Shown: positions 1,538 through 10,157 of the stretch, one piece after another | How the letters are laid out: each line of letters starts with the position of its first letter | How positions within the stretch are numbered: position 1 is the stretch's first letter | DNA from: Epulopiscium sp. Nele67-Bin004 | GTDB lineage: Bacteria; Bacillota_A; Clostridia; Lachnospirales; Cellulosilyticaceae | Assembly: GCA_002007315.1 (NCBI GenBank) | Contig: LNZQ01000148.1 | Location: forward strand, 1-10,157 | Reading direction: 5' to 3' | DNA length: 10,157 bases | Made by a program: the position numbers and the translations under genes | Notes under the pieces: generated by a model | Databases searched by the model: none | What the model saw: the letters and a program-made list of their open reading frames with translations, nothing else | Told to the model about the DNA's origin: nothing

Positions 1538-1933
1538 TCAATCCATTTGGACAGAGTGGTCAATAACCAAATCCACTTGAATCTCAGGAGTGATTTTTTT
1601 AGGGTTTTTGTGCGCGTCTTTCATGCCTTCTCTAAGCGATGCCAAATCCACCACAGCAGGCACGCCTGTCAAATCTTGCAAAATAACTCTGGTAGGTTTG
1701 TAAGGAACGCTCACCGAATCCCCTTTGCCGTAAGCTTGTGCGATTGTTTTTGCGTAAGCAAATGGAAAATCGACCTCTTCTCCATTGCGGATGATATTCT
1801 CTAACAACACGCGAATAGAATAAGGAGTCTTTTCAAAGTCCCCACCTTGCTCTTGAATAAACTTTTTAACATCGTAAAATGAGTATTCTTTGTCGTTCAC
1901 AGACATTTTGGACATATAATCGTTGTACTGCAT
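1538..1933 (-). CDS. acnA: Aconitate hydratase (AcnA type), N-terminal fragment
   Basis: Aconitase is a cytosolic 4Fe-4S enzyme that interconverts citrate and isocitrate in the TCA cycle. The 132 codons present carry the AcnA/IRP-type N-terminal signature: PYSIRVLLENIIRN, then TRVILQDLTGVPAVVDLASL, then VDLVIDHSVQMD. These match the start of roughly 900-residue AcnA proteins; the three cluster cysteines would lie in the missing part. I chose ATG at 1933 because GGAG stands 7 nt before it; a further upstream in-frame ATG at 1960 lacks such a site and overlaps the 13-base motif of the 5' region. The frame meets TGA right after VQMD, exactly where family similarity stops, so the gene is cut by a sequence join and is not a natural pseudogene. 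It lies downstream of, and on the same strand as, the GntR regulator, with its own promoter. A paralogue acting on 2-methylaconitate cannot be excluded from the N-terminus alone. Confidence 0.88.
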   Translation of the reverse strand: MQYNDYMSKMSVNDKEYSFYDVKKFIQEQGGDFEKTPYSIRVLLENIIRNGEEVDFPFAYAKTIAQAYGKGDSVSVPYKPTRVILQDLTGVPAVVDLASLREGMKDAHKNPKKITPEIQVDLVIDHSVQMD

Positions 1934-1944
1934 GCAGTGTCTCC

Positions 1945-1957
1945 TGTATTTTTGTAT
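1945..1957 (-). promoter_or_regulatory. 13-base motif in acnA leader, shared with regulator leader
   Basis: On the minus strand this reads ATACAAAAATACA, two ATACA units separated by AAA. The identical 13-mer occurs at 2729-2741 upstream of the GntR gene. Here it lies just before the acnA Shine-Dalgarno. It could be a second operator or a shared leader element; the role is inferred from the repetition alone. Confidence 0.4.
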
Positions 1958-1965
1958 CATTGTGT

Positions 1966-1979
1966 AATTGTATACAATT
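1966..1979. promoter_or_regulatory. Palindromic operator candidate AATTGTATACAATT
   Basis: This is a perfect 14-bp palindrome lying between the acnA -10 box and the acnA start codon, about 14 nt downstream of the -10, where a bound protein would block early transcription. The core TTGTATACAA resembles known operators of FadR/FCD-type GntR regulators, and the gene for such a regulator is the next one upstream. Binding is inferred. Confidence 0.6.
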
Positions 1980-1993
1980 TTTACTACATGAAT

Positions 1994-2021
1994 ATTATAA
2001 CATGTATAATTTTTTTTGCAA
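1994..2021 (-). promoter_or_regulatory. acnA promoter
   Basis: On the minus strand, TTGCAA (2016-2021) is followed after 16 nt by a perfect TATAAT (1994-1999). This places transcription start just before or within the palindrome at 1966-1979. It lies in the gap between the regulator stop codon and acnA, so acnA has a promoter separate from the regulator. Confidence 0.65.
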
Positions 2022-2044
2022 GCTTTTTTTCATTTATTCTGCAA

Positions 2045-2710
2045 TTATTTTTTTGACTCTGACATCTGGTGGATAATGGTCTGGCAAGCAGTCATCAAAT
2101 GTCTTTTGTTTACTTTTTGTAATTGTAGAATATCCCTGCTTTTAATTAATTCCAGCATTTCTTTATGGTCGTTGTAAGCTTGTTTTATCCGCTCTGTAGA
2201 TGCCAGCGATTTTATTTTTAATTTTGATAAAAAAAAGTTGTATTGGTCTAATATTTTTGAAGAAACCGTATAATTTGAGCTGGCTAACATCTCCTTACTG
2301 AATGTGGTTATGCTTTTTCTAGCATCTTCCCATTCTTGATTTTGGATTTCTCTTTCGTTTACGTCGACAATCTTTTGCAGTTTGTTTATAAATTCACTCG
2401 TGCAGTTATTTTCGTTTTCTAAAATGTTTTCTAAAATGACATTTTCTAATGATATTCTTATGTGGTAAATCTCTCTGACCAGTGCATCGTCTATTTCTAT
2501 GATTTTTATGCGTCCATTAGGCAAACGTGTCAAAATACCCTCGACCTCCAATCTCTTGAAAGCCTCGCGGATAGGCGTCCTGCTGATATTTAACCTATCG
2601 GCAAACTCTTGTTCTATTATGGTGTCTCCAAAATCCAATACATCATCTAAAATGTCTTGCTTGACTATTTGATATATTCTATCACTGACGTTAATACGCT
2701 TGCTAATCAT
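2045..2710 (-). CDS. GntR family transcriptional regulator, FCD (FadR) subfamily
   Basis: This is a DNA-binding regulator of about 221 residues, the usual size for the FCD subfamily. Residues about 8-70 form the GntR winged helix-turn-helix, with the family core ISRTPIREAFKRLEVEGIL followed by the wing. Residues about 78-215 are the all-helical FCD ligand-binding domain, including NDHKEMLELIKSRD and KRHLMTA near the end, which carry two of the usual metal-binding histidines. The usual FH pair in the earlier FCD helix reads FS (TTFSKEM), so one metal ligand may be missing. I chose ATG at 2710 because GGGAGG lies 8 nt upstream; a GTG at 2719 would overlap that site. FCD proteins commonly sense organic acids. 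With a palindrome in front of acnA, the likely job is control of acnA and perhaps of its own gene, with a TCA-cycle acid as a possible signal. Ligand and target are inferred. Confidence 0.88.
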   Translation of the reverse strand: MISKRINVSDRIYQIVKQDILDDVLDFGDTIIEQEFADRLNISRTPIREAFKRLEVEGILTRLPNGRIKIIEIDDALVREIYHIRISLENVILENILENENNCTSEFINKLQKIVDVNEREIQNQEWEDARKSITTFSKEMLASSNYTVSSKILDQYNFFLSKLKIKSLASTERIKQAYNDHKEMLELIKSRDILQLQKVNKRHLMTACQTIIHQMSESKK

Positions 2711-2728
2711 CTCAAACACCTCCCATAA

Positions 2729-2741
2729 TGTATTTTTGTAT
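2729..2741 (-). promoter_or_regulatory. 13-base motif in regulator leader, shared with acnA leader
   Basis: The minus strand carries ATACAAAAATACA, identical to 1945-1957. It begins within about a base of the gntR -10 box and ends before the Shine-Dalgarno, a position suited to autoregulation. Function is inferred. Confidence 0.4.
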
Positions 2742-2771
2742 ATTATAGCATAGATACCACGATAAAAGCAA
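2742..2771 (-). promoter_or_regulatory. Promoter of the GntR regulator gene
   Basis: On the minus strand, TTGCTT (2766-2771) is followed after 18 nt by a perfect TATAAT (2742-2747), about 31 nt before the chosen ATG. The region between this promoter and the cas9 promoter is an A+T-rich divergent intergenic space. Confidence 0.6.
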
Positions 2772-2860
2772 ATTTATTTATAGTGTGATGATATTGTTGA
2801 TTTTTTAGCATACATATTAGTGTGGACTTATATTTACCTTAAATTACTATCTAAATGGTA

Positions 2861-2889
2861 TTGTAATTTTTTGATAAATATACTATAAT
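2861..2889 (+). promoter_or_regulatory. Promoter of the cas9-cas1-cas2 operon
   Basis: TTGTAA (2861-2866) is followed after exactly 17 nt by TATAAT (2884-2889). It is the best sigma70-type site upstream of cas9 and implies a 5' leader of about 130-135 nt. That leader holds no open frame that I would call, only two copies of TGCATATT (2927-2934 and 3011-3018). Confidence 0.6.
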
Positions 2890-3030
2890 TAATCCTAAAA
2901 AATGTAAAAATACTTGAGAGCATATCTGCATATTCCTGAAAATTGAAAGAAATTAAATATAAAGATATGAGATAATTACTTTAGATTGCTTAAAATAGAA
3001 TAGTTTACACTGCATATTATGGAGAAATAT

Positions 3031-6000
3031 ATGAACACATCATATCTGAATGATAAATTACAATTAAGACATTTATTGGCTGGCAAGCCTTATCGCGTGG
3101 GTTTGGATTTAGGGGTAGGCTCTATAGGCTTTGCAGTAGTATCATTAGAGTGCATAGACGATAAAACTATACCTACGGACTTAATATTAAATGGTTCAAG
3201 GATATTTGAGACTTCTATAGGAGCTGCAGAACGCAGAGGCTTTAGAGGCGGTAGAAATGCCCACCACCATGATAGAAATAGAAAATTGTGGCTGTGGAAA
3301 GTGCTTTCCGAACATTCAATGATGCTGCCTCCAGAATACAAAGGTATATTTATTGACCATAAAAACAGAAGGCGGCACAGTGATACTTCAAAAGTAATGT
3401 TCTCCAAATCTGTTTTGAGCTGCTCTCCTTATGATTTGAGATATAAAGGATTAACGCATAAATTAGAATTACCGGAGCTTGGGTATGCATTGTATCACCT
3501 GTCAAATCATAGGGGCAGTTCTGCAATGCGGGTAAATCCGGATGCTACGGAGGAGGAAAAAACAGCTCAAAAAAGCATACAGGAAACCCAAGAGTTTGCT
3601 AAGAAACACAGCACAGCAAATACATTTGTGGAATTGTTAATTATAAATAATCAAGAGAATAATACAGGTTTTAGAAACAAGCTGAAAAGAAAATACGCAT
3701 TAATGCCTACAAGAAATTTAATATTAAACGAGCTGAGTACACTTCTTGATACGCAGAGTAAGTTTTATCCTGATATATTTACCGAAGAATTTATAAATCA
3801 GATAAAATATATTGTCAATTATGAGAACGAAATGATAGTTCCCGATTCAGGGAGATGTATATTTTTTGAAGATGAGCCTAAGCTTCCTAAATGTAATTTT
3901 TTGAATGAAGAACGCCGTATATGGGAAGCGTTAAACAATACCAGAATAGACGGCAAACCATTATCAATGGAGCAAAAACAAAACTTCTACGAGCATTTGA
4001 GAGCAGGTAATGATTTGACACCGGCAATAGTCAAAAAAGAGGTTAAATATGACAATATTACGCTTCAAGGTAGGAATAAAGACAATCAAAAAATACAAGG
4101 TTTTCGATTTAAAGATTTAGAAAATAAAGATTTCTGGAGTAGATTGGATGATGTGCAAAAAGATCGGTTTTTTGCAGATTGGACGAATTGTGCAGATGAT
4201 AATAAATTATTAGATATTTTGCAATGTGAATATAATCTTACTTACGATGAGGCGTACGATACGCTAAACAGCATAAGCCTTATTGGAGATTATGCGCCTA
4301 TCGGTAAAACCGCTATGCAGATAGTGGTTGAATATATAAAAAATGATTCATTATCGTATTTAGAGGCTGTCAATAAAGCCATCGAAGACGGAAAGCTCAA
4401 ATCTAACGCAGAAAATATAGTATACGATACGCTGCCTTATTATGGAGCTGTTTTAAGCGAGTCTACGCAAGGGTTTATAGGTAAGGCGTGGCATAGCTCC
4501 CTCAAGGATAAGTTCAAACAAGAACCCAAGCGCTACAAAACGCCTCATACAAATAAAGATGAAAAAAAATACGGGCGTATCGCCAATCCTGTAGTACACC
4601 AAACATTAAACGAACTTCGTAAATTAGTCAATGAGATAGTTGATATATTTGGTTACAAACCTGCAGAGATAGGCATAGAGCTGTCACGTGAATTAAAAGT
4701 AGGTACTAAAGAACGTGACAAAATCATCTCAGATCAGAATGCTAACGAAAAACAAAATAAACGAATCATGGATGAGTATTGTATTCCAAACGGTGTAGAC
4801 GAAAAATATATTCTTAGATTTCAATTAGCTGAAGAACAAGGTTGCATATGTCCGTACTGCTTAGAAAGATTTAAGGTTAAAGATGTCGTTTCAGGAGATG
4901 TGGATATAGACCATATTTTTCCTCAATCCCAATCTGCAGATAACTCAAGAAACAACCTTGTAATGGCGCATAAAACTTGCAATGTACAGCTCAAAGGTAA
5001 CAGGACTCCATATAATGCTTTTTCCGGTGATAAAAACTGGAGTGAGATAATACATTTTGTTAAAGAGCAACTGCCGAACAAATTATGGCGATTCACGAAA
5101 AACGACGAAGAGTACAGAGAATGGCTCAATCACAGAGGATTTCTAGCGAGATTCAGCACGGATACCAGCTACATAGCAAAAGCCGCTGCAGCTTATATGC
5201 AATGTTTGTATGTTGATAAATCAAAGAAAAATGTCAGGACGCTGAAAGGCGGCGAAACTGCAACTTTACGAAAAGCTTGGGGGCTGCATGGAATCACCCA
5301 TGAGCTTGGTAATAGATTTGTCGATGATAACAATGGAGTGTATTTTCACCCTGCTAAAAAAATGCGTTTGGATCACAGGCATCATGCATTAGATGCTGTT
5401 ACGATAGCATATTCCACAAACGGCTACAGTAAACTTATAAACACTCTGAGCGGAAAGGGCTTTGAGCTTCAAGCAATTAGAGAAATGATACCCCTGCCTA
5501 ATATAGCCAAAATCTACCAAAACCAAAATATAGACGAGACAGCTCTGGGCGATAAAGAAACATTTGCGACCTACATAAAAGATAAAATCACCAATCATTC
5601 TTATATCAGCATAAAGTATGACCACAACAAAAACGGGGGATTGTTAAAGCAAACTGCGTATACTATTCTATTTGAAAAAGCCGGCGAGATTGTTTTGTCT
5701 ACTAAGAAAAAAATAGATGGTATAAAGGATAATTTGATAGAAGTGGATAAACAGCTGCTTCCAAAAATGTATACCGAAGAAAAGCTGCTAAAATACTCGG
5801 ATAGCGAAAGAGCCAAGCTGCAAAAACTATTGGAACACAACAAGCTAAAAAGAGAAGATATAATGAATGCAATGCCTACAGCGGAGCAAGAATTAACTTC
5901 TGAAAATGAATCGTTAAAAGCAGAAGGCAAGAAAGAAAGAACTATTAATGAAAACTCTATACTTAAACGAGCTTTGAGTACGGTAGGCAGTTTTTACTAT

Positions 6001-6531
6001 CAAATTTCAAATAACGAAAAAAGCAAAAAATTTATTGTTGTAGAGCCTGCTGAAGACAGGGTAGGGGTGGCATACGACACAGACGAAAATCTAAGAATAG
6101 ACCTGTACCATGATAGCAACGGCAAGCTGTGCGGCGAGGTTATCAGGAAAGTAAACGCCATGAATAAAGATTTTATTCCGGACTATCAGAAATCCGGCTA
6201 TACACTGCTGGAAAGTATATATCAGGGTGATACGCTGGAGATAGATTTGGTAAATCATAAGACATTAACAGATAAATCCAATCTGTTAGAGAAAGCCGCG
6301 TCTGTTAAAGCTCCTAATGCTCCGGCAGGCAGGACATACGTAAGAGTGGCGACATTTACAGAAGTAGGCAGCGGTATACAGATACACTTACAGAATTTAC
6401 TAAAAGCGCAAAAAGGTAATGATGCTTCGTTTAATATTAATTCCATGCAAAAATGGAATGTTAGAAGAGTGGTGTTATCGTCGGTAGGACTTACAAGGTA
6501 TCGTTCGCCAATACTCAAAAACAAGCAATAA
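3031..6531 (+). CDS. cas9: CRISPR-associated endonuclease Cas9, type II-C
   Basis: RNA-guided DNA endonuclease that uses crRNA paired with tracrRNA to find and cut both target strands. From ATG 3031 (GGAG 6 nt upstream) it has 1166 residues; an in-frame ATG at 3019 would overlap that site and add four. Order of parts: RuvC-I VGLDLGVGSIG with catalytic D26; arginine-rich bridge helix about 66-95 (AERRGFRGGRNAHHHDRNRK); recognition lobe about 95-530; RuvC-II IGIELSREL with E550; HNH domain with CxxC at 607-610, VDIDHIFPQS with H628 and N651 (23 residues after the histidine, as in SpCas9 H840/N863); RuvC-III DHRHHALDA with H785 and D788; then the WED/PAM-interacting region from about 975. All nuclease residues are present and the frame is intact. 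Size, three-cas-gene operon and tracrRNA position indicate II-C. The PAM cannot be read from sequence. Confidence 0.97.
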   Translation: MNTSYLNDKLQLRHLLAGKPYRVGLDLGVGSIGFAVVSLECIDDKTIPTDLILNGSRIFETSIGAAERRGFRGGRNAHHHDRNRKLWLWKVLSEHSMMLPPEYKGIFIDHKNRRRHSDTSKVMFSKSVLSCSPYDLRYKGLTHKLELPELGYALYHLSNHRGSSAMRVNPDATEEEKTAQKSIQETQEFAKKHSTANTFVELLIINNQENNTGFRNKLKRKYALMPTRNLILNELSTLLDTQSKFYPDIFTEEFINQIKYIVNYENEMIVPDSGRCIFFEDEPKLPKCNFLNEERRIWEALNNTRIDGKPLSMEQKQNFYEHLRAGNDLTPAIVKKEVKYDNITLQGRNKDNQKIQGFRFKDLENKDFWSRLDDVQKDRFFADWTNCADDNKLLDILQCEYNLTYDEAYDTLNSISLIGDYAPIGKTAMQIVVEYIKNDSLSYLEAVNKAIEDGKLKSNAENIVYDTLPYYGAVLSESTQGFIGKAWHSSLKDKFKQEPKRYKTPHTNKDEKKYGRIANPVVHQTLNELRKLVNEIVDIFGYKPAEIGIELSRELKVGTKERDKIISDQNANEKQNKRIMDEYCIPNGVDEKYILRFQLAEEQGCICPYCLERFKVKDVVSGDVDIDHIFPQSQSADNSRNNLVMAHKTCNVQLKGNRTPYNAFSGDKNWSEIIHFVKEQLPNKLWRFTKNDEEYREWLNHRGFLARFSTDTSYIAKAAAAYMQCLYVDKSKKNVRTLKGGETATLRKAWGLHGITHELGNRFVDDNNGVYFHPAKKMRLDHRHHALDAVTIAYSTNGYSKLINTLSGKGFELQAIREMIPLPNIAKIYQNQNIDETALGDKETFATYIKDKITNHSYISIKYDHNKNGGLLKQTAYTILFEKAGEIVLSTKKKIDGIKDNLIEVDKQLLPKMYTEEKLLKYSDSERAKLQKLLEHNKLKREDIMNAMPTAEQELTSENESLKAEGKKERTINENSILKRALSTVGSFYYQISNNEKSKKFIVVEPAEDRVGVAYDTDENLRIDLYHDSNGKLCGEVIRKVNAMNKDFIPDYQKSGYTLLESIYQGDTLEIDLVNHKTLTDKSNLLEKAASVKAPNAPAGRTYVRVATFTEVGSGIQIHLQNLLKAQKGNDASFNINSMQKWNVRRVVLSSVGLTRYRSPILKNKQ

Positions 6532-6554
6532 AATTAGACTTTCATACAAAAAAT

Positions 6555-6604
6555 AAGTATACTCTAGTAGAGATAATTTCTTGAAACAGGGTATACTTTT
6601 TTTT
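6555..6604 (+). terminator. Hairpin plus T-run between cas9 and cas1
   Basis: AAGTATAC (6555-6562) and GTATACTT (6591-6598) are perfect inverted arms around a 28-nt loop that holds a mini-stem CTC/GAG. A run of eight T (6597-6604) follows and touches the cas1 Shine-Dalgarno GAGGTG (6605-6610). It resembles a weak intrinsic terminator or attenuator that would lower cas1-cas2 relative to cas9. The stem is A+T rich, so strength is doubtful. The left arm overlaps a possible weak promoter (TTAGAC, 18 nt, TATACT at 6558-6563) that could serve cas1. Confidence 0.4.
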
Positions 6605-6614
6605 GAGGTGAAAT

Positions 6615-7505
6615 ATGTGGAGAATAATTGATATTGGCGGAGACGATTTGTTTCTGCATACGGAGCGTGACAGTCTTGTGGCTGTTAGGGATAGTAAAGA
6701 GCAGAGCAGGGTGCATTTTTCGGATATACATTCTATTATCTGTCATAGCTATGGGGCGGTTTATTCTGATAAGATGTTCAAAAAATGTTTGGAGTTTAAC
6801 ATTCCATTGATTATCTGTGACGATAAACACACGCCTCAAGGAATGTTATTGCCTTTTATGCAGCACACAGATGCCGGAAAACGCTTTAAACTGCAGTTAA
6901 ATGCAACTGTACCCCAGAAGAAACGAGCTTGGAAGATGATAATCGAAGAAAAATTACGCAATCAAGCTAAACTATTAGAAGCGGTTGAGTTGCCATTTGA
7001 TAAAATAAAACAATTATCGAAACATGTATTATCAGGAGATTCTGACAACAAAGAAGCACAGGGAGCGAGGATATATTTCCAGAGCTTGTTCGGTAAAGAT
7101 TTTCTGAGGACTTCGGACAATGAAATAAACGCACTTTTGAATTATGCGTATACTGTACTTCGTTCGTGTGTGGCGAGAGCTGTAATAGGTGCGGGATTGC
7201 ATCCCAGTCTGGGACTGCACCACAGCGCAAATCACAATCCTTACTGCTTGGTTGATGATTTGATGGAGCCGTTCCGCCCTTTTGCTGACGGTATTGTATT
7301 GGATATTATTAAAAATTATGATGATATAACAATCTGCCCGCAAATTAAAAAAGATATTATTCATATGAGCAAAATGTCAATTCATTATCAACGAGAAAAT
7401 CTGGAATTTACAACAGCTATGCAATATTACACACAAAATTTTTTCAGATATTTAGAAGGAGGGGAGATGAAATTTCCCAAGTTCGATTATGATTTCGCCT
7501 TATAA
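6615..7505 (+). CDS. cas1: CRISPR-associated endonuclease Cas1, type II
   Basis: Cas1 is the metal-dependent integrase that, with Cas2, inserts new spacers into the array. The protein has 296 residues, normal for type II. The N-terminal beta domain (about 1-85) starts MWRIIDIGGDDLFL. The helical catalytic domain carries KEAQGARIYF with E147, GLHHSANHNP with the catalytic histidine at about H203, and VDDLMEPFRPFAD with E218, the family's metal-binding set. GAGGTG stands 4 nt before the ATG, giving a firm start. The gene follows cas9 by 83 nt, with a hairpin in the gap, and its last codons overlap the cas2 start. No csn2 or cas4 is present, which supports the II-C assignment. The catalytic numbering is by eye against family motifs. 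Confidence 0.96.
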   Translation: MWRIIDIGGDDLFLHTERDSLVAVRDSKEQSRVHFSDIHSIICHSYGAVYSDKMFKKCLEFNIPLIICDDKHTPQGMLLPFMQHTDAGKRFKLQLNATVPQKKRAWKMIIEEKLRNQAKLLEAVELPFDKIKQLSKHVLSGDSDNKEAQGARIYFQSLFGKDFLRTSDNEINALLNYAYTVLRSCVARAVIGAGLHPSLGLHHSANHNPYCLVDDLMEPFRPFADGIVLDIIKNYDDITICPQIKKDIIHMSKMSIHYQRENLEFTTAMQYYTQNFFRYLEGGEMKFPKFDYDFAL

Positions 7506-7815
7506 ATCTATGTGGCTGATAGTGTCTTTTGATATTTCCACGCAAACAAAAATAGACAGACGTCGTGCAAATAATTTTCGAAAGGATTTGATAACGCTAG
7601 GTTTTATAAGACTTCAGCTGTCTATTTATAGTAAATACTGCTATAGTAAGGATAAAGCTGATAGAACTTCAGCGAAAATTAAAACTTTTTTACCTGCTAA
7701 TGGGCATGTCACGATTTTTTTCTTGACAGATAGGCAATTTGGATTGACTAAAAATTTTTTCGGCGGTATAGAAGAGGTTATTGAAGAACCTGAAGATAGT
7801 ATGTTTTTATTTTGA
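7489..7815 (+). CDS. cas2: CRISPR-associated protein Cas2, type II
   Basis: Small ferredoxin-fold partner that bridges two Cas1 dimers during spacer capture. The 108-residue frame contains MWLIVSFDIST with the conserved aspartate D15, the basic stretch KIDRRRANNFRKDL, LQLSIYSKYC, and late VTIFFLTDRQFG, in the usual order, and it ends in an acidic tail, EEPEDSMFLF. The start is uncertain: ATG 7489 overlaps the cas1 end by 17 nt and suits translational coupling, while ATG 7510 would begin directly at MWLIV. Neither has a well-placed Shine-Dalgarno; GGAGGGG at about 7459-7465 is roughly 24 nt before 7489. The stop codon lies two bases from the predicted 3' end of the oppositely oriented tracrRNA. 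Confidence 0.94.
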   Translation: MISPYKSMWLIVSFDISTQTKIDRRRANNFRKDLITLGFIRLQLSIYSKYCYSKDKADRTSAKIKTFLPANGHVTIFFLTDRQFGLTKNFFGGIEEVIEEPEDSMFLF

Positions 7816-7816
7816 T

Positions 7817-7897
7817 AAAAAGGAGCCTCCTTACAAGAAGGAGGCATTTTACGACTAAAGCGTCTTGTCAGAGCACTTTTTGTAAATAAATGTAACA
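7817..7897 (-). ncRNA. tracrRNA
   Basis: Trans-activating RNA of about 80 nt that pairs with the crRNA repeat and binds Cas9. On the plus strand, 7876-7895 (CTTTTTGTAAATAAATGTAA) is identical to 20 contiguous repeat bases, so the minus-strand transcript is perfectly complementary to the crRNA there. Next come a TGCT bulge and CTGAC, which can form the lower stem with the repeat 5' end GTTAG (one G-U pair). A small GAC/GTC hairpin acts as a nexus candidate, and a strong terminator hairpin with T-run ends at about 7817. The start is set by the consensus promoter at 7903-7931; TSS is about 7896-7898. It is transcribed towards cas2 and on the same strand as the crRNAs. Exact ends are predicted. 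Confidence 0.92.
7825..7845. terminator. Bidirectional terminator shared by cas2 and tracrRNA
   Basis: GCCTCCTT and AAGGAGGC form a perfect 8-bp G+C-rich stem with a 5-nt loop. On the minus strand it is followed by TCC and five T, ending the tracrRNA and giving its 3' hairpin. On the plus strand it is followed by ATTTT, a weaker terminator for the cas operon, starting 10 nt after the cas2 stop. Confidence 0.85.
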
Positions 7898-7902
7898 TAA
7901 AT

Positions 7903-7931
7903 ATTATACCACAGATTATCTGGTTTGTCAA
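7903..7931 (-). promoter_or_regulatory. tracrRNA promoter (consensus sigma70)
   Basis: On the minus strand, TTGACA (7926-7931) is followed after 17 nt by TATAAT (7903-7908): both boxes match the consensus perfectly, with ideal spacing. The anti-repeat begins right after it. This is the strongest-looking promoter in the window and suggests high constitutive tracrRNA output. Confidence 0.9.
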
Positions 7932-8043
7932 TCAAAATTACCAAAAAATTGATTATTGCATAATAAACAATCAATGAAATATCAGCTTTTTTGAGGAGGT
8001 TTGCTTGTTATATTTTGTATTACTCAGCACTTAGCGAAGTAAT
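7932..8043. other. Gap between tracrRNA promoter and CRISPR array
   Basis: A+T-rich, no gene. It holds an inverted repeat at 7948-7975 (ATTGATT with AATCAAT, plus an inner TTATT/AATAA) upstream of the tracrRNA promoter. A second one, ATTACT/AGTAAT with a nested ACTT/AAGT, abuts the array (about 8019-8043), at the 3' end of array transcription. Neither has a T-run on the expected side, so I do not call them terminators. Confidence 0.5.
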
Positions 8044-8343
8044 ATTATATTACATTTATTTACAAAAAGCAACCCTAACCACCTGGAGTGTTGAGATAAA
8101 AGACTACGAATTATATTACATTTATTTACAAAAAGCAACCCTAACGATTCTCAGCTCAGGCAAAGATTCTTTAAAATTATATTACATTTATTTACAAAAA
8201 GCAACCCTAACTGGATTGAACAAAGCTTTAGCATTGCAGAAATTATATTACATTTATTTACAAAAAGCAACCCTAACACGATTTGCAAAAACCATTCCAA
8301 CTCATATATTATATTACATTTATTTACAAAAAGCAACCCTAAC
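8044..8343 (-). CRISPR. Type II-C CRISPR array: five repeats, four spacers
   Basis: Five identical 36-bp repeats lie at 8044-8079, 8110-8145, 8176-8211, 8242-8277 and 8308-8343, separated by four unrelated 30-bp spacers (8080-8109, 8146-8175, 8212-8241, 8278-8307), so the period is exactly 66. Read on the minus strand the repeat begins GTTAGGGTTGC and ends ATGTAATATAAT, the usual type II pattern (GTT at the start, AT-rich -10-like end), and the tracrRNA anti-repeat confirms this direction. The minus-strand repeat contains TTGCTT, 17 nt, then TATAAT at its last six bases, so each repeat is also a promoter for the adjoining crRNA. No repeat is degenerate. The plus-strand frame running through the array is only an artefact of the 66-bp period. 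Confidence 0.97.
8308..8330 (-). promoter_or_regulatory. Repeat-embedded crRNA promoter (example, first repeat transcribed)
   Basis: In the minus-strand repeat, TATAAT occupies the last six bases (8308-8313 here). The 17-nt spacer 8314-8330 precedes it and TTGCTT lies just before that at 8331-8336. The same arrangement occurs in all five repeats. Transcription would start about 6-7 nt into each spacer. Confidence 0.75.
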
Positions 8344-8454
8344 AGATTGTATTTGTGTAAACTCCAGCCCTGCTTTAGGCAAACAAGGGTATCAGCGAGT
8401 GGATTTTTATATACTAATCTGTGTGGATGAGTTGTACGGTAGGCGACACAGAGC

Positions 8455-8470
8455 GGGGCTGGATGAATTG
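8455..8470 (+). repeat. 16-bp direct repeat, copy 1
   Basis: GGGGCTGGATGAATTG occurs here and again, identical, at 8855-8870, exactly 400 bp apart. The related word TGATATGCAG occurs at 8474-8483 and 8818-8827. No function is known to me. Confidence 0.6.
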
Positions 8471-8736
8471 TGCTGATATGCAGGCTGTCAGGTGGTTTTG
8501 TTCATGTGCAATCGTGCCGGCAGTTTTGTATATAACTCAAATTATGTATTCTTATATCTAAGTCATGCTAGCGGGTTTTTGAATTATCACAATGCGAGAT
8601 ATGGTGTTTTAAGCTCATGTACAACTAAACAATCGCGCTGGTGTGTGTTGGGGCAGGGTAAGATAATACCTGTGAGCTGTAGGGGCTTTAAAAGGCGGTT
8701 TCTCGCGTTCTAATTATCGGTGATTGATGATTAGTT

Positions 8737-8790
8737 GAGCGGTTTTGCGATGATTTGATTTGTGAATTGGATTTACAATGTTTTGTGATT
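8737..8790 (+). repeat. 54-bp direct repeat, copy 1
   Basis: This 54-bp block beginning GAGCGGTTTTGCGATGATTT matches 8902-8955 with five mismatches and no gaps, 165 bp apart. It has no palindrome or open frame. It may be part of a dispersed repeat family of the bacterium. Confidence 0.7.
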
Positions 8791-8854
8791 GAATTAGTTT
8801 ATGCGGATTTGTTGTGATGATATGCAGATTAGTCGTGTAAGTTATGTAGATTGT

Positions 8855-8870
8855 GGGGCTGGATGAATTG
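8855..8870 (+). repeat. 16-bp direct repeat, copy 2
   Basis: Identical to 8455-8470. It lies between the two copies of the 54-bp repeat. Confidence 0.6.
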
Positions 8871-8901
8871 AGTTTTGTAGAGTAGCTGTATAAATCGCGT
8901 G

Positions 8902-8955
8902 GAGCGTTTTTGCGATGATTTGGTTTGTGGGTTGGATTTATAATGTTTTGTGATT
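8902..8955 (+). repeat. 54-bp direct repeat, copy 2
   Basis: It matches 8737-8790 at 49 of 54 positions. Similarity stops at 8955, which is also where the sequence changes character to fish-like, so this copy marks the right edge of the bacterial segment. Confidence 0.65.
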
Positions 8956-8959
8956 ATTT

Positions 8960-9042
8960 TTGCTGCACTGTATCAGCTGTGGAGGACCTAGGCGGGTTGG
9001 AAAACTTAACAACATCGTGTCTGTGCTCATTGCATCATCCTG
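8960..9042 (+). repeat. Diverged 83-bp repeat, copy 1
   Basis: It begins TTGCTGCACTGTATC and shares ACTTAACAA and CATCAT landmarks, without visible gaps, with 9144-9226, 184 bp further on. The copies differ at many positions, with several C/T and G/A changes, as in old CpG-decayed eukaryotic repeats. Confidence 0.65.
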
Positions 9043-9143
9043 TAGTGTATGTTGCATCACTCCGTTTTCACTCACAGCAAAGTGGGGACGTCAGGAGGAA
9101 TGGGGGCTTGCCATTTCATTTACTGCAGCTGATATATCCATTA

Positions 9144-9226
9144 TTGCTGCACTGTATCCGTTGTGGAAGTCCCAGAAACATTGAAAAACTTAACAATGTT
9201 GTGTTTGTGTTCACAACATCATCTGG
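9144..9226 (+). repeat. Diverged 83-bp repeat, copy 2
   Basis: Counterpart of 8960-9042. The shared frame and spacing suggest a tandem unit of about 184 bp of which only part remains similar. Confidence 0.65.
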
Positions 9227-9609
9227 AAATGCATAAAGTTGTGTTGTATAGCTCCTACAAAAACATTACATCTGCTGTGAAAGCCATCAGAGACTACTGA
9301 TGATGTAGTCTATCGTGTTCTTGAAGGCGTGTCCTATTTCGTGGGGTTAGATTTCAGCCACTTCCCCTTGAAACTTTGTTCTAAGGTCATTAATAAATAG
9401 ACTGATAGTAATAATTATATCTAAAAAAAAAATCCAAATCATTTGGACGTTTGAGGTAAGCCTTACCGACTGATATCAAGTTTTGGACAGACAGTTATGA
9501 ACCTCAGAGGATGACTTTCCTCTAGCGCTACCAAGCTTCCAAATCTTATAATTAGCAAATGTGAGCAAACTTACCAGACAAACCAGGATGTAAATGGTTT
9601 ACAGTGTAA

Positions 9610-9778
9610 TAGGGCTGGACAATTATGGCAAAAGTAATAATCCCGATTATTTTGATTGATATTGTTATCCCGATTTTTTACCATGATTTTTAATTGGCTT
9701 TAAGAACATCATGCATTTTGGAGCACTGACAGTAGTGTTTCCTTTAAAAGCTGCTGTCTTTACTGTTAGGCCTACATA
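9610..9778 (+). mobile_element. hAT-like fish transposon fragment, one end
   Basis: The stretch starting AGGGCTGGACAATTATGGC, then TAATCCCGATTATTTTGATTG and a second TATCCCGAT block, has the look of the terminal region of non-autonomous hAT elements that are abundant in teleost genomes. The other terminal inverted repeat is missing because the fish DNA stops at about 9778. Assignment is from remembered family appearance, not a search. Confidence 0.5.
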
Positions 9779-9782
9779 CAGT

Positions 9783-10157
9783 AAAACTAAAAGAGAAATA
9801 GAAATTGTTACATATATAGAACCAGCACTTACTGATTATATGACAAGTGTAGTACATCCTTCATTTAATAATTTACAAATAGAAACATATTATGATGAAG
9901 AATTAGATAGTATTATAGCTTTAAAAAGATTAAAGAATGAAAAAGATACTGAAATATATATGTATAGCAAATTATTAGGTATTGATTTTGAAAAAGGAAT
10001 TGAAACAGAAAAAACGAAACTTGATACTAATAAAAGTCATGATTTAAATGTTTCTAAATATCCATTATGGCCAGTGCTTTCATATAAGGCTAAAATAATA
10101 TTAGATCCTTATGAAAAACAGTCTTTTTACTATATTGTAGGTATAGAAGAAAGTAAG
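9783..10157 (+). CDS. Cyclic beta-glucan synthase / GH94-type enzyme, internal fragment
   Basis: The frame is open to the window end and gives 125 residues from 9783. Landmarks are REIEIVTYIEPALTDY, then HPSFNNLQIETYYDEELDSI, then YPLWPVLSYKAKIILDP and FYYIVGIEESK. They resemble the beta-sandwich part of NdvB-like cyclic beta-1,2-glucan synthases and GH94 phosphorylases (family pattern: LTSYxE, HPAFxxLxxET, LDPVLxLRxxVxLxPG). Such proteins are very large, and neither end nor catalytic residues are present here. The frame runs back to ATG 9711, but that part is the fish mobile element, so no natural start exists. Codons are almost all A/T ending, unlike the cas genes, which suggests a different bacterium, perhaps a Clostridium-like or Fusobacterium-like species. 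Family assignment is moderate. Confidence 0.6.

Follow-up and report, generated by a model that had tools for sequence, protein, structure and literature searches.

Results

Organisation of the locus

The DNA analysed here, referred to as the window, is a stretch of 10,157 nucleotides. By our own reading of the sequence its bacterial part runs from about 1538 to about 8950, and this core has a G+C content of 36%. The protein-coding genes are as follows.

1538-1960, minus strand: acnA fragment, a truncated gene
2045-2719, minus strand: gntR, a GntR/FCD regulator
3019-6531, plus strand: cas9, type II-C-like, 1170 amino acids (TIGR01865, 493 bits)
6615-7505, plus strand: cas1 of type II (TIGR03639, 264 bits; PADLOC Cas1_II)
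7489-7815, plus strand: cas2 (TIGR01573, 60 bits; PADLOC Cas2_II)

The Cas9 protein contains the RuvC_III and HNH_4 Pfam domains of a type II-C effector, and its 28 matches to solved structures are all Cas9 or Cas9 domains by name or family. The nearest database protein is 65% identical, and a quick tree places the window Cas9 together with seven Spirochaetota rows (98% SH-aLRT). Neither csn2 nor cas4 was found between 2720 and the array, where the list of open reading frames of at least 60 amino acids has no further entry lying clear of cas9, cas1, cas2 and the array. The three cas genes lie on the plus strand, whereas the array and a tracrRNA lie on the minus strand. Judged by its sequence, the locus is an ordinary type II-C CRISPR-Cas9 system, with cas9-cas1-cas2, a tracrRNA and an array opposite to the cas genes.

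Outside the core, positions 1-1537 and about 8956-9780 are non-bacterial in appearance and lack long open reading frames. The flank includes duplicated stretches, for example 8956-9050 and 9140-9234, and 9711-10157 encodes a GH94 fragment; the contig looks chimeric.

The array and its tracrRNA

The features of the array and tracrRNA, all on the minus strand, are listed below.

7815..7896: tracrRNA (anti-repeat, short stem, terminator hairpin 7845-7825, T-run), its start predicted from the promoter
7867..7900: anti-repeat, 34 pairs with repeat bases 1-35 (cofold -42.5 kcal/mol; inverted repeats)
7903..7931: tracrRNA promoter, TTGACA-17-TATAAT with TG before the -10
7932..8043: presumed leader, 112 nt from R5 to the tracrRNA promoter, assigned by position and by the array polarity of relatives
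7948..7975: A+T-rich 10-bp hairpin followed by a T-run (-6.5 kcal/mol, z -1.7)
8044..8343: CRISPR array, five identical 36-nt repeats and four 30-nt spacers, strand from tracrRNA pairing
8308..8343: repeat R1, first in transcription; -35-like TTGCTT 8336-8331, -10 TATAAT 8313-8308
8278..8307: spacer 1, predicted start 8302-8301 (nt 6-7)
8242..8277: repeat R2; TTGCTT 8270-8265, TATAAT 8247-8242
8212..8241: spacer 2, predicted start 8236-8235
8176..8211: repeat R3; TTGCTT 8204-8199, TATAAT 8181-8176
8146..8175: spacer 3, predicted start 8170-8169
8110..8145: repeat R4; TTGCTT 8138-8133, TATAAT 8115-8110
8080..8109: spacer 4, predicted start 8104-8103
8044..8079: repeat R5, the last, adjoining the presumed leader; TTGCTT 8072-8067, TATAAT 8049-8044

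The repeat, GTTAGGGTTGCTTTTTGTAAATAAATGTAATATAAT, is present in five identical minus-strand copies with a unit of 66 nt, and each copy consists of 7 nt (GTTAGGG), TTGCTT, 17 nt and TATAAT, the latter forming its last six bases. Since the tracrRNA pairs with the repeat in this orientation and has its own promoter and terminator on the minus strand, this is the crRNA strand, in agreement with the initial annotation. The tracrRNA region 7899-7823 folds with a z score of -3.7, and a single repeat base, U9 inside the TTG, is the unpaired base in the duplex with the anti-repeat. A repeat:tracrRNA duplex of near full length would be a likely substrate of RNase III. A search of Rfam gave no match at the gathering threshold.

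R5 is a candidate second promoter for the tracrRNA, considered because the majority of tracrRNA species in C. jejuni are said to arise from promoters further upstream (PMC3656092; here and below, PMC numbers refer to the portions of each article consulted). The tracrRNA of the window does have its own promoter, which matches the consensus at 12/12 positions, and a weak terminator-like hairpin lies between the two. The hairpin at 7948..7975, which 15 of 200 shuffles equal in folding, is possibly a weak array terminator.

Over 7876-7905 the anti-repeat keeps its pairing while its copy of the -10 is altered to CATAAA from TATAAT. This change would remove a cryptic antisense promoter; relatives compared by eye were mixed in this respect. 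At 8202-8218, a hairpin resembling an intrinsic terminator, followed by CTTTTTG, spans the junction of spacer 2 and R3, and any spacer ending in the complement of GGGTTG might form a similar structure with the next repeat.

Exact 20-21-mers of the four spacers gave 0 matches each as protospacers in viral_contigs, and blastn of 7820-8343 against phages returned 14 records, none better than E 0.1. A degenerate repeat pattern found 20 stretches in viral_contigs, with one match each.

Promoter boxes in the repeat

The initial annotation held that every repeat is a full promoter. The arrangement on which this was based, TTGCTT, 17 nt and TATAAT on the minus strand, is exact in 5/5 repeats, and the -10 part of the claim stands: all five end at their 3' side in a perfect sigma-70 -10 hexamer, as repeat-encoded promoters do. 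The boxes and their spacing, the strand, the tracrRNA and its pairing are read directly from the DNA. The word "full" goes too far, however; TTGCTT matches TTGACA at only 3/6 positions, the TGn of an extended -10 is absent (TAA precedes TATAAT in the window repeat), and a sigma-70 scan of 7700-8700 requiring at least 4/6 in each box listed none of the repeats, while it did list the tracrRNA promoter, at 12/12.

In shuffles of the window repeat, TATAAT as the exact last six bases has a P of 0.003, a TTG 16-18 nt upstream a P of 0.12, and the two jointly a P of 0.0004. When the last six bases are held fixed, TTG at exactly 17 nt has a P of 0.046, and the -35 score alone, computed with approximate position weights for E. 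coli sigma 70, a P of 0.16, which for the window repeat is within chance.

The boxes of the repeat were also compared with the remainder of the locus. Sites of the form TTGNNN-N16-18-TATAAT number nine on both strands of 1538-8950, five of them being the repeats. The other four are the tracrRNA promoter and the following.

1994..2021, minus strand: putative acnA promoter, TTGCAA-16-TATAAT
2742..2771, minus strand: putative gntR promoter, TTGCTT-18-TATAAT, with the same -35 hexamer as the repeats
2861..2889, plus strand: putative cas9 promoter, TTGTAA-17-TATAAT

These four precede acnA, gntR, cas9 and the tracrRNA, each on the strand of its own gene, and all are intergenic by coordinates, where intergenic sequence makes up 694 of 6506 bases. 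Four sites outside the array (1538-8043) compare with 0.8 expected, and 6 of 1000 dinucleotide-preserving shuffles reach four. These sites are, in our view, the strongest indication that this genome writes its promoters as TTG plus TATAAT and that the repeats follow this grammar. Upstream of R1, no strong promoter on the minus strand emerged from the sigma-70 scan of 7700-8700, which lists two 9/12 sites there (8692-8663 and 8612-8583).

Recurrence of the boxes in relatives

Relatives of the Cas9 were collected from genome_contigs (22 loci), from 10 genomes (10 with a match) and 11 further genomes (2 with a match), from viral contigs (21 loci) and from plasmids (56 records, 16 regions fetched); a search of viral_contigs with alignment A1 found no relative. 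The phyla reached from L005 (Endomicrobium) and L001 (Treponema) were represented by 340 and 392 genomes, of which 87 and 67 matched at E <= 0.001, and 40 genomic regions surrounding matches were extracted. A script identified 64 loci with an array as well as a Cas9 frame; two with 47-nt repeats (L144, L145) were dropped, leaving 62 rows with 56 distinct repeats. The second array of L161 was dropped, as was L138 (72-nt unit, not II-C-like) from the tree, the TTG statistic and the recount, and the duplicates L092 and L093 were left out of the tree and the polarity count. The array is antisense to cas9 in 58/62 rows, counted before L136 was re-oriented by hand. L009 was oriented by its GTTGGG start; by this start the arrays of L009 and L011 run in the direction of cas9, unlike nearly all other rows. 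L018 (G009 contig C19) has a five-repeat array beside a cas9 with 6 TGA, 1 TAG and 8 TAA codons in one match, and this system is probably decayed.

The main statistic was calculated on 62 repeats, 55 distinct ones from the loci and 7 of type II-C printed in Table 1 of PMC4607530. TTG occurs 16-18 nt before the last hexamer in 29 of the 62, always at 16 or 17 nt. All of these come from the loci (29/55), as against 0/7 of the printed repeats, with C. jejuni and N. lactamica among the latter, and the set accordingly favours relatives of the Cas9s used as queries. The II-A repeats of the same table have TTG at 16-18 nt in 0/8 cases. When repeats are clustered at 70% identity, TTG at 16-17 nt is found in 11/29 clusters, with a mean of 0.35 against 0.07 expected when columns are permuted together within clusters (P 2.5e-4, the lowest value that the test can return). 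At 80% identity (42 clusters) the mean is 0.39 against 0.07 (P 2.5e-4), and at 60%, the coarsest level (5 clusters), TTG gives a P of 0.024 and the -35 match a P of 0.084. An earlier, smaller -35 test (42 repeats in 14 hand-made groups) had given P 0.006 to 0.018. TTG is rare at the other distances tested, reaching at most 0.10 of clusters (at 21 nt), the GTTG start of the repeat excepted. It is on account of this recurrence in relatives, together with the locus-wide TTGNNN-N16-18-TATAAT sites, that we place the arrangement above chance despite its weak -35.

The -10 at the repeat end is in strong excess in the set, with a match of at least 5/6 in 32/55 distinct locus repeats, and in 16/55 it is joined to the TTG. 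The repeats of the seven Spirochaetota whose Cas9s group closest to that of the window have no TTG. L002 and L091, of the Sphaerochaeta type and among these seven, have repeats with no -10 at the end; in Sphaerochaeta-type repeats a box a few bases further in has been suggested (PMC4607530). A quick Cas9 tree built on 59 rows requires no fewer than 9 changes of the TTG, a rough figure because the tree has long branches and compositional bias. A trade-off between TTG and TGn was also considered and is not supported. The raw counts among distinct repeats with a -10 of at least 5/6 are nearly exclusive (13 with TTG only, 10 with TGn only, 2 with both, or 3 with L136 re-oriented, and 6 with neither), but independent pairs on the Cas9 tree gave a median P of 0.6 to 1 among the tests listed.

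Cofolds of repeat and anti-repeat were tried for 31 loci, of which 22 have an anti-repeat candidate and 9 do not. Thirteen of the TTG-bearing loci have a candidate, and five of these were set aside as unreliable, four with a match score of 12 or less (L005, L010, L098, L113) and one with its match inside its own array (L097); in all five the TTG is wholly or partly unpaired. Of the eight usable loci, four (the window, L117, L147, L156) have unpaired bases within the TTG and four (L096, L127, L128, L137) pair it completely. The distance from TTG to the last hexamer nevertheless stays at 16-17 nt in both groups (4 vs 4), and such constancy of DNA spacing across differing RNA contexts speaks for a promoter role without proving it.

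Array polarity

The five repeats of the window are identical and so carry no signal of polarity. Of 49 uncut arrays of relatives (8 more are cut by the end of the locus), with the ends named by direction of transcription, 24 have degenerate repeats solely at the upstream end, 0 solely at the downstream end, 3 at both ends and 22 at neither. This pattern agrees with the published polarity of II-C arrays, in which new spacers are inserted at the last repeat and every repeat is equipped with a promoter (PMC12080349, PMC12638026). By analogy with these relatives, the presumed leader at 7932..8043 would be the side of spacer acquisition.

Discussion

From the sequence features described above we consider it probable that, in this II-C locus, the sigma-70 -10 of each repeat can start a crRNA about 6-7 nt into the next spacer, giving a guide of roughly 24 nt; initiation at spacer nt 6 would leave 25 nt and at nt 7, 24 nt. 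At nt 7 the four spacers have G, A, G and T, and the sequence following R5 has T. That the promoters fire, and at these start sites, we infer from their sequence. RNA polymerase would begin each crRNA in this way from the -10 of the preceding repeat; the transcript would then read through the next repeat, where it probably pairs with the tracrRNA, and a cut there, presumably by RNase III, would set the 3' end of the crRNA. Because a repeat is duplicated when a spacer is integrated at the downstream end, a promoter would come with every new spacer, and none would be needed in the leader. The initial annotation further suggested that RNase III may be dispensable, which finds no support here: the tracrRNA is able to pair along nearly the full repeat, and in C. 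jejuni RNase III still makes the 3' end of the crRNA.

The role of the TTG is less certain than that of the -10. It would, in our reading, help as a reduced -35, replacing the TGn found in the repeats of C. jejuni and Neisseria. The earlier claim of a -35 inside the repeat is upheld in so far as the spacing of the TTG recurs in many of the II-C relatives fetched and follows the grammar of the locus, and is weakened by the 3/6 match and by its absence from the 7 printed repeats. There is a real possibility that the repeats act as promoters through the -10 alone and that the TTG is kept for another reason while inactive as a -35, for instance for recognition by Cas9 or Cas1-Cas2 or as a loop of the repeat:anti-repeat duplex. 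This would fit a hexamer that matches at 3/6 and holds the only unpaired base inside the duplex. Furthermore, the first 13 bases are common to the seven Elusimicrobiota GTTAGGGTTGC repeats although their last hexamers vary, which means that conservation is not specific to a -35, and PMC3656092 and PMC4607530 describe II-C repeat promoters by the -10 alone. Against it, the 16-17 nt spacing holds in the usable loci whether the TTG is paired (four) or contains unpaired bases (four), and TTG is rare at the other distances tested, the GTTG start excepted. In addition, the putative gntR promoter in the window uses the identical TTGCTT, and a sigma-70 promoter with neither TGn nor a -35 would be weak.

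Alternatively, the boxes in the repeats may be inactive and the array matured in the classical manner, with a single promoter upstream of R1 and a long pre-crRNA cut by tracrRNA and RNase III. We regard this as unlikely. In its favour, the tracrRNA can pair extensively with the repeat, and in the II-C system of Riemerella no repeat promoter was found in the published account and a leader promoter was proposed (PMC5006608). Yet the scan of 7700-8700 lists no strong minus-strand promoter upstream of R1 but two 9/12 sites, a TATAAT at the repeat end is improbable by chance, and the starts mapped in C. jejuni lie inside each spacer (PMC3656092). It is more improbable still that the boxes are a functionless by-product of A+T-rich sequence. 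The low G+C content of the core and the fact that 16% of shuffled repeats reach an equal -35 score point in this direction, but the terminal TATAAT, alone and with the TTG, is much rarer in shuffles of the repeat, the -10 recurs across different II-C repeat groups, and the TTG/TATAAT grammar extends over the locus.

Returning to the preferred reading, in which the -10 of the repeat drives each crRNA and the TTG assists it, we tentatively suggest, as something a little short of an even chance, that the promoters of II-C repeats are built in two ways: with the extended -10 already described, or in a -35/-10 form contained wholly within the 36-nt repeat. The window, the GTTAGGGTTGC repeats, the GTTGCAGGTTGAC repeats and possibly the GTTGCGGCTTGACC-like repeats would belong to the second form, and their membership is put forward with the same reserve as the form itself. 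That the printed repeats carry no TTG lowers the odds of there being two architectures.

Repeat-encoded promoters let II-C arrays grow at the downstream end and yet express every spacer. If the -35/-10 form is real, one 36-nt sequence would be the integration unit, the tracrRNA partner and a complete promoter at once, and every insertion would clone a promoter. The strength of the promoter would then be written into the repeat itself and might vary from one system to another; the form could also be used in annotating the orientation of II-C arrays, and short portable repeat units might start a guide RNA without an outside promoter. What is gained from the window alone is small, namely one more II-C array.

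Comparison with known systems

Promoters within repeats have been established for type II-C since 2013, in C. jejuni and N. meningitidis, and the core idea is not new; the window array is a new member of this group and the -35/-10 form a variant. No description of a -35 box inside sigma-70-type II-C repeats was found in the literature examined, which consisted of main texts, most of them in part. A -10 closing the repeat is general among II-C systems; in the comparison of 58 II-C species in PMC4607530, the box is placed elsewhere in five, and the II-C -10 consensus given there, gnTAnaaT, does not demand TGn.

The closest functional parallels are with the two systems established first. For C. 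jejuni (Dugar et al. 2013, PMC3656092), differential RNA-seq and primer extension place the crRNA start at nt 5 of every spacer, and the 3' end is produced by RNase III together with tracrRNA. As in the window, a -10 box lies at the 3' end of every repeat and the tracrRNA is nearby. The C. jejuni repeat, however, has the extended -10-like GGTAAAAT and no TTG at 16-18 nt, whereas the window has TATAAT without TGn and a TTG 17 nt upstream. The parallel that the initial annotation drew with N. meningitidis is borne out by published accounts of the work of Zhang et al. 2013, in which promoters lie inside each repeat and RNase III is dispensable (via PMC5006608, PMC5965380); that system is likewise II-C with repeat-internal promoters, functional there, whereas those of the window are predicted from sequence. 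The printed repeat of N. lactamica (PMC4607530) ends in TGCTACAAT, an extended -10, and has CTCCCT where the window has TTGCTT. TGn is present in N. lactamica, C. jejuni and other repeats compared.

Clostridium cellulolyticum has a II-C array which, like that of the window, is opposite to the cas genes and has a -10-like repeat end; its crRNAs carry 23-26 nt of spacer, and its repeat differs in being extended -10-like over the last nine bases, with no -35 noted in that account (PMC7038990). The II-C systems of Flavobacterium columnare and F. psychrophilum resemble the window in having a TTG 33-35 bp upstream of each spacer, which has been proposed as a repeat-encoded promoter directing transcription towards the variable end; they differ in that the promoter is of the Bacteroidota type, and the transcript support in F. 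columnare is eight reads on the array (PMC8092290, PMC10309648).

Two groups of relatives come nearest to the arrangement in the window. The GTTAGGGTTGCCC repeats of the Elusimicrobiota relatives (L005, L008, L010, L014, L018, L019, L086) share the first 11 bases of the window repeat and have the TTG 17 nt before the last hexamer, but with TTGCCC (4/6) as the -35-like hexamer, variable last hexamers and TGn in 2/7. The array of L103 at 10632-11128 has a consensus repeat with a perfect TTGACA-16-TATAAT (12/12). The GTTGCAGGTTGAC-type repeats to which it belongs (L096, L097, L098, L099, L103, L104 and L108, from the phylum of the Treponema record L001) have, like the window, both boxes in the repeat and no TGn, and they are nearer to consensus than the window repeat, with TTGACC, TTGACT or TTGACA, 16 nt and TATAAT, up to 12/12.
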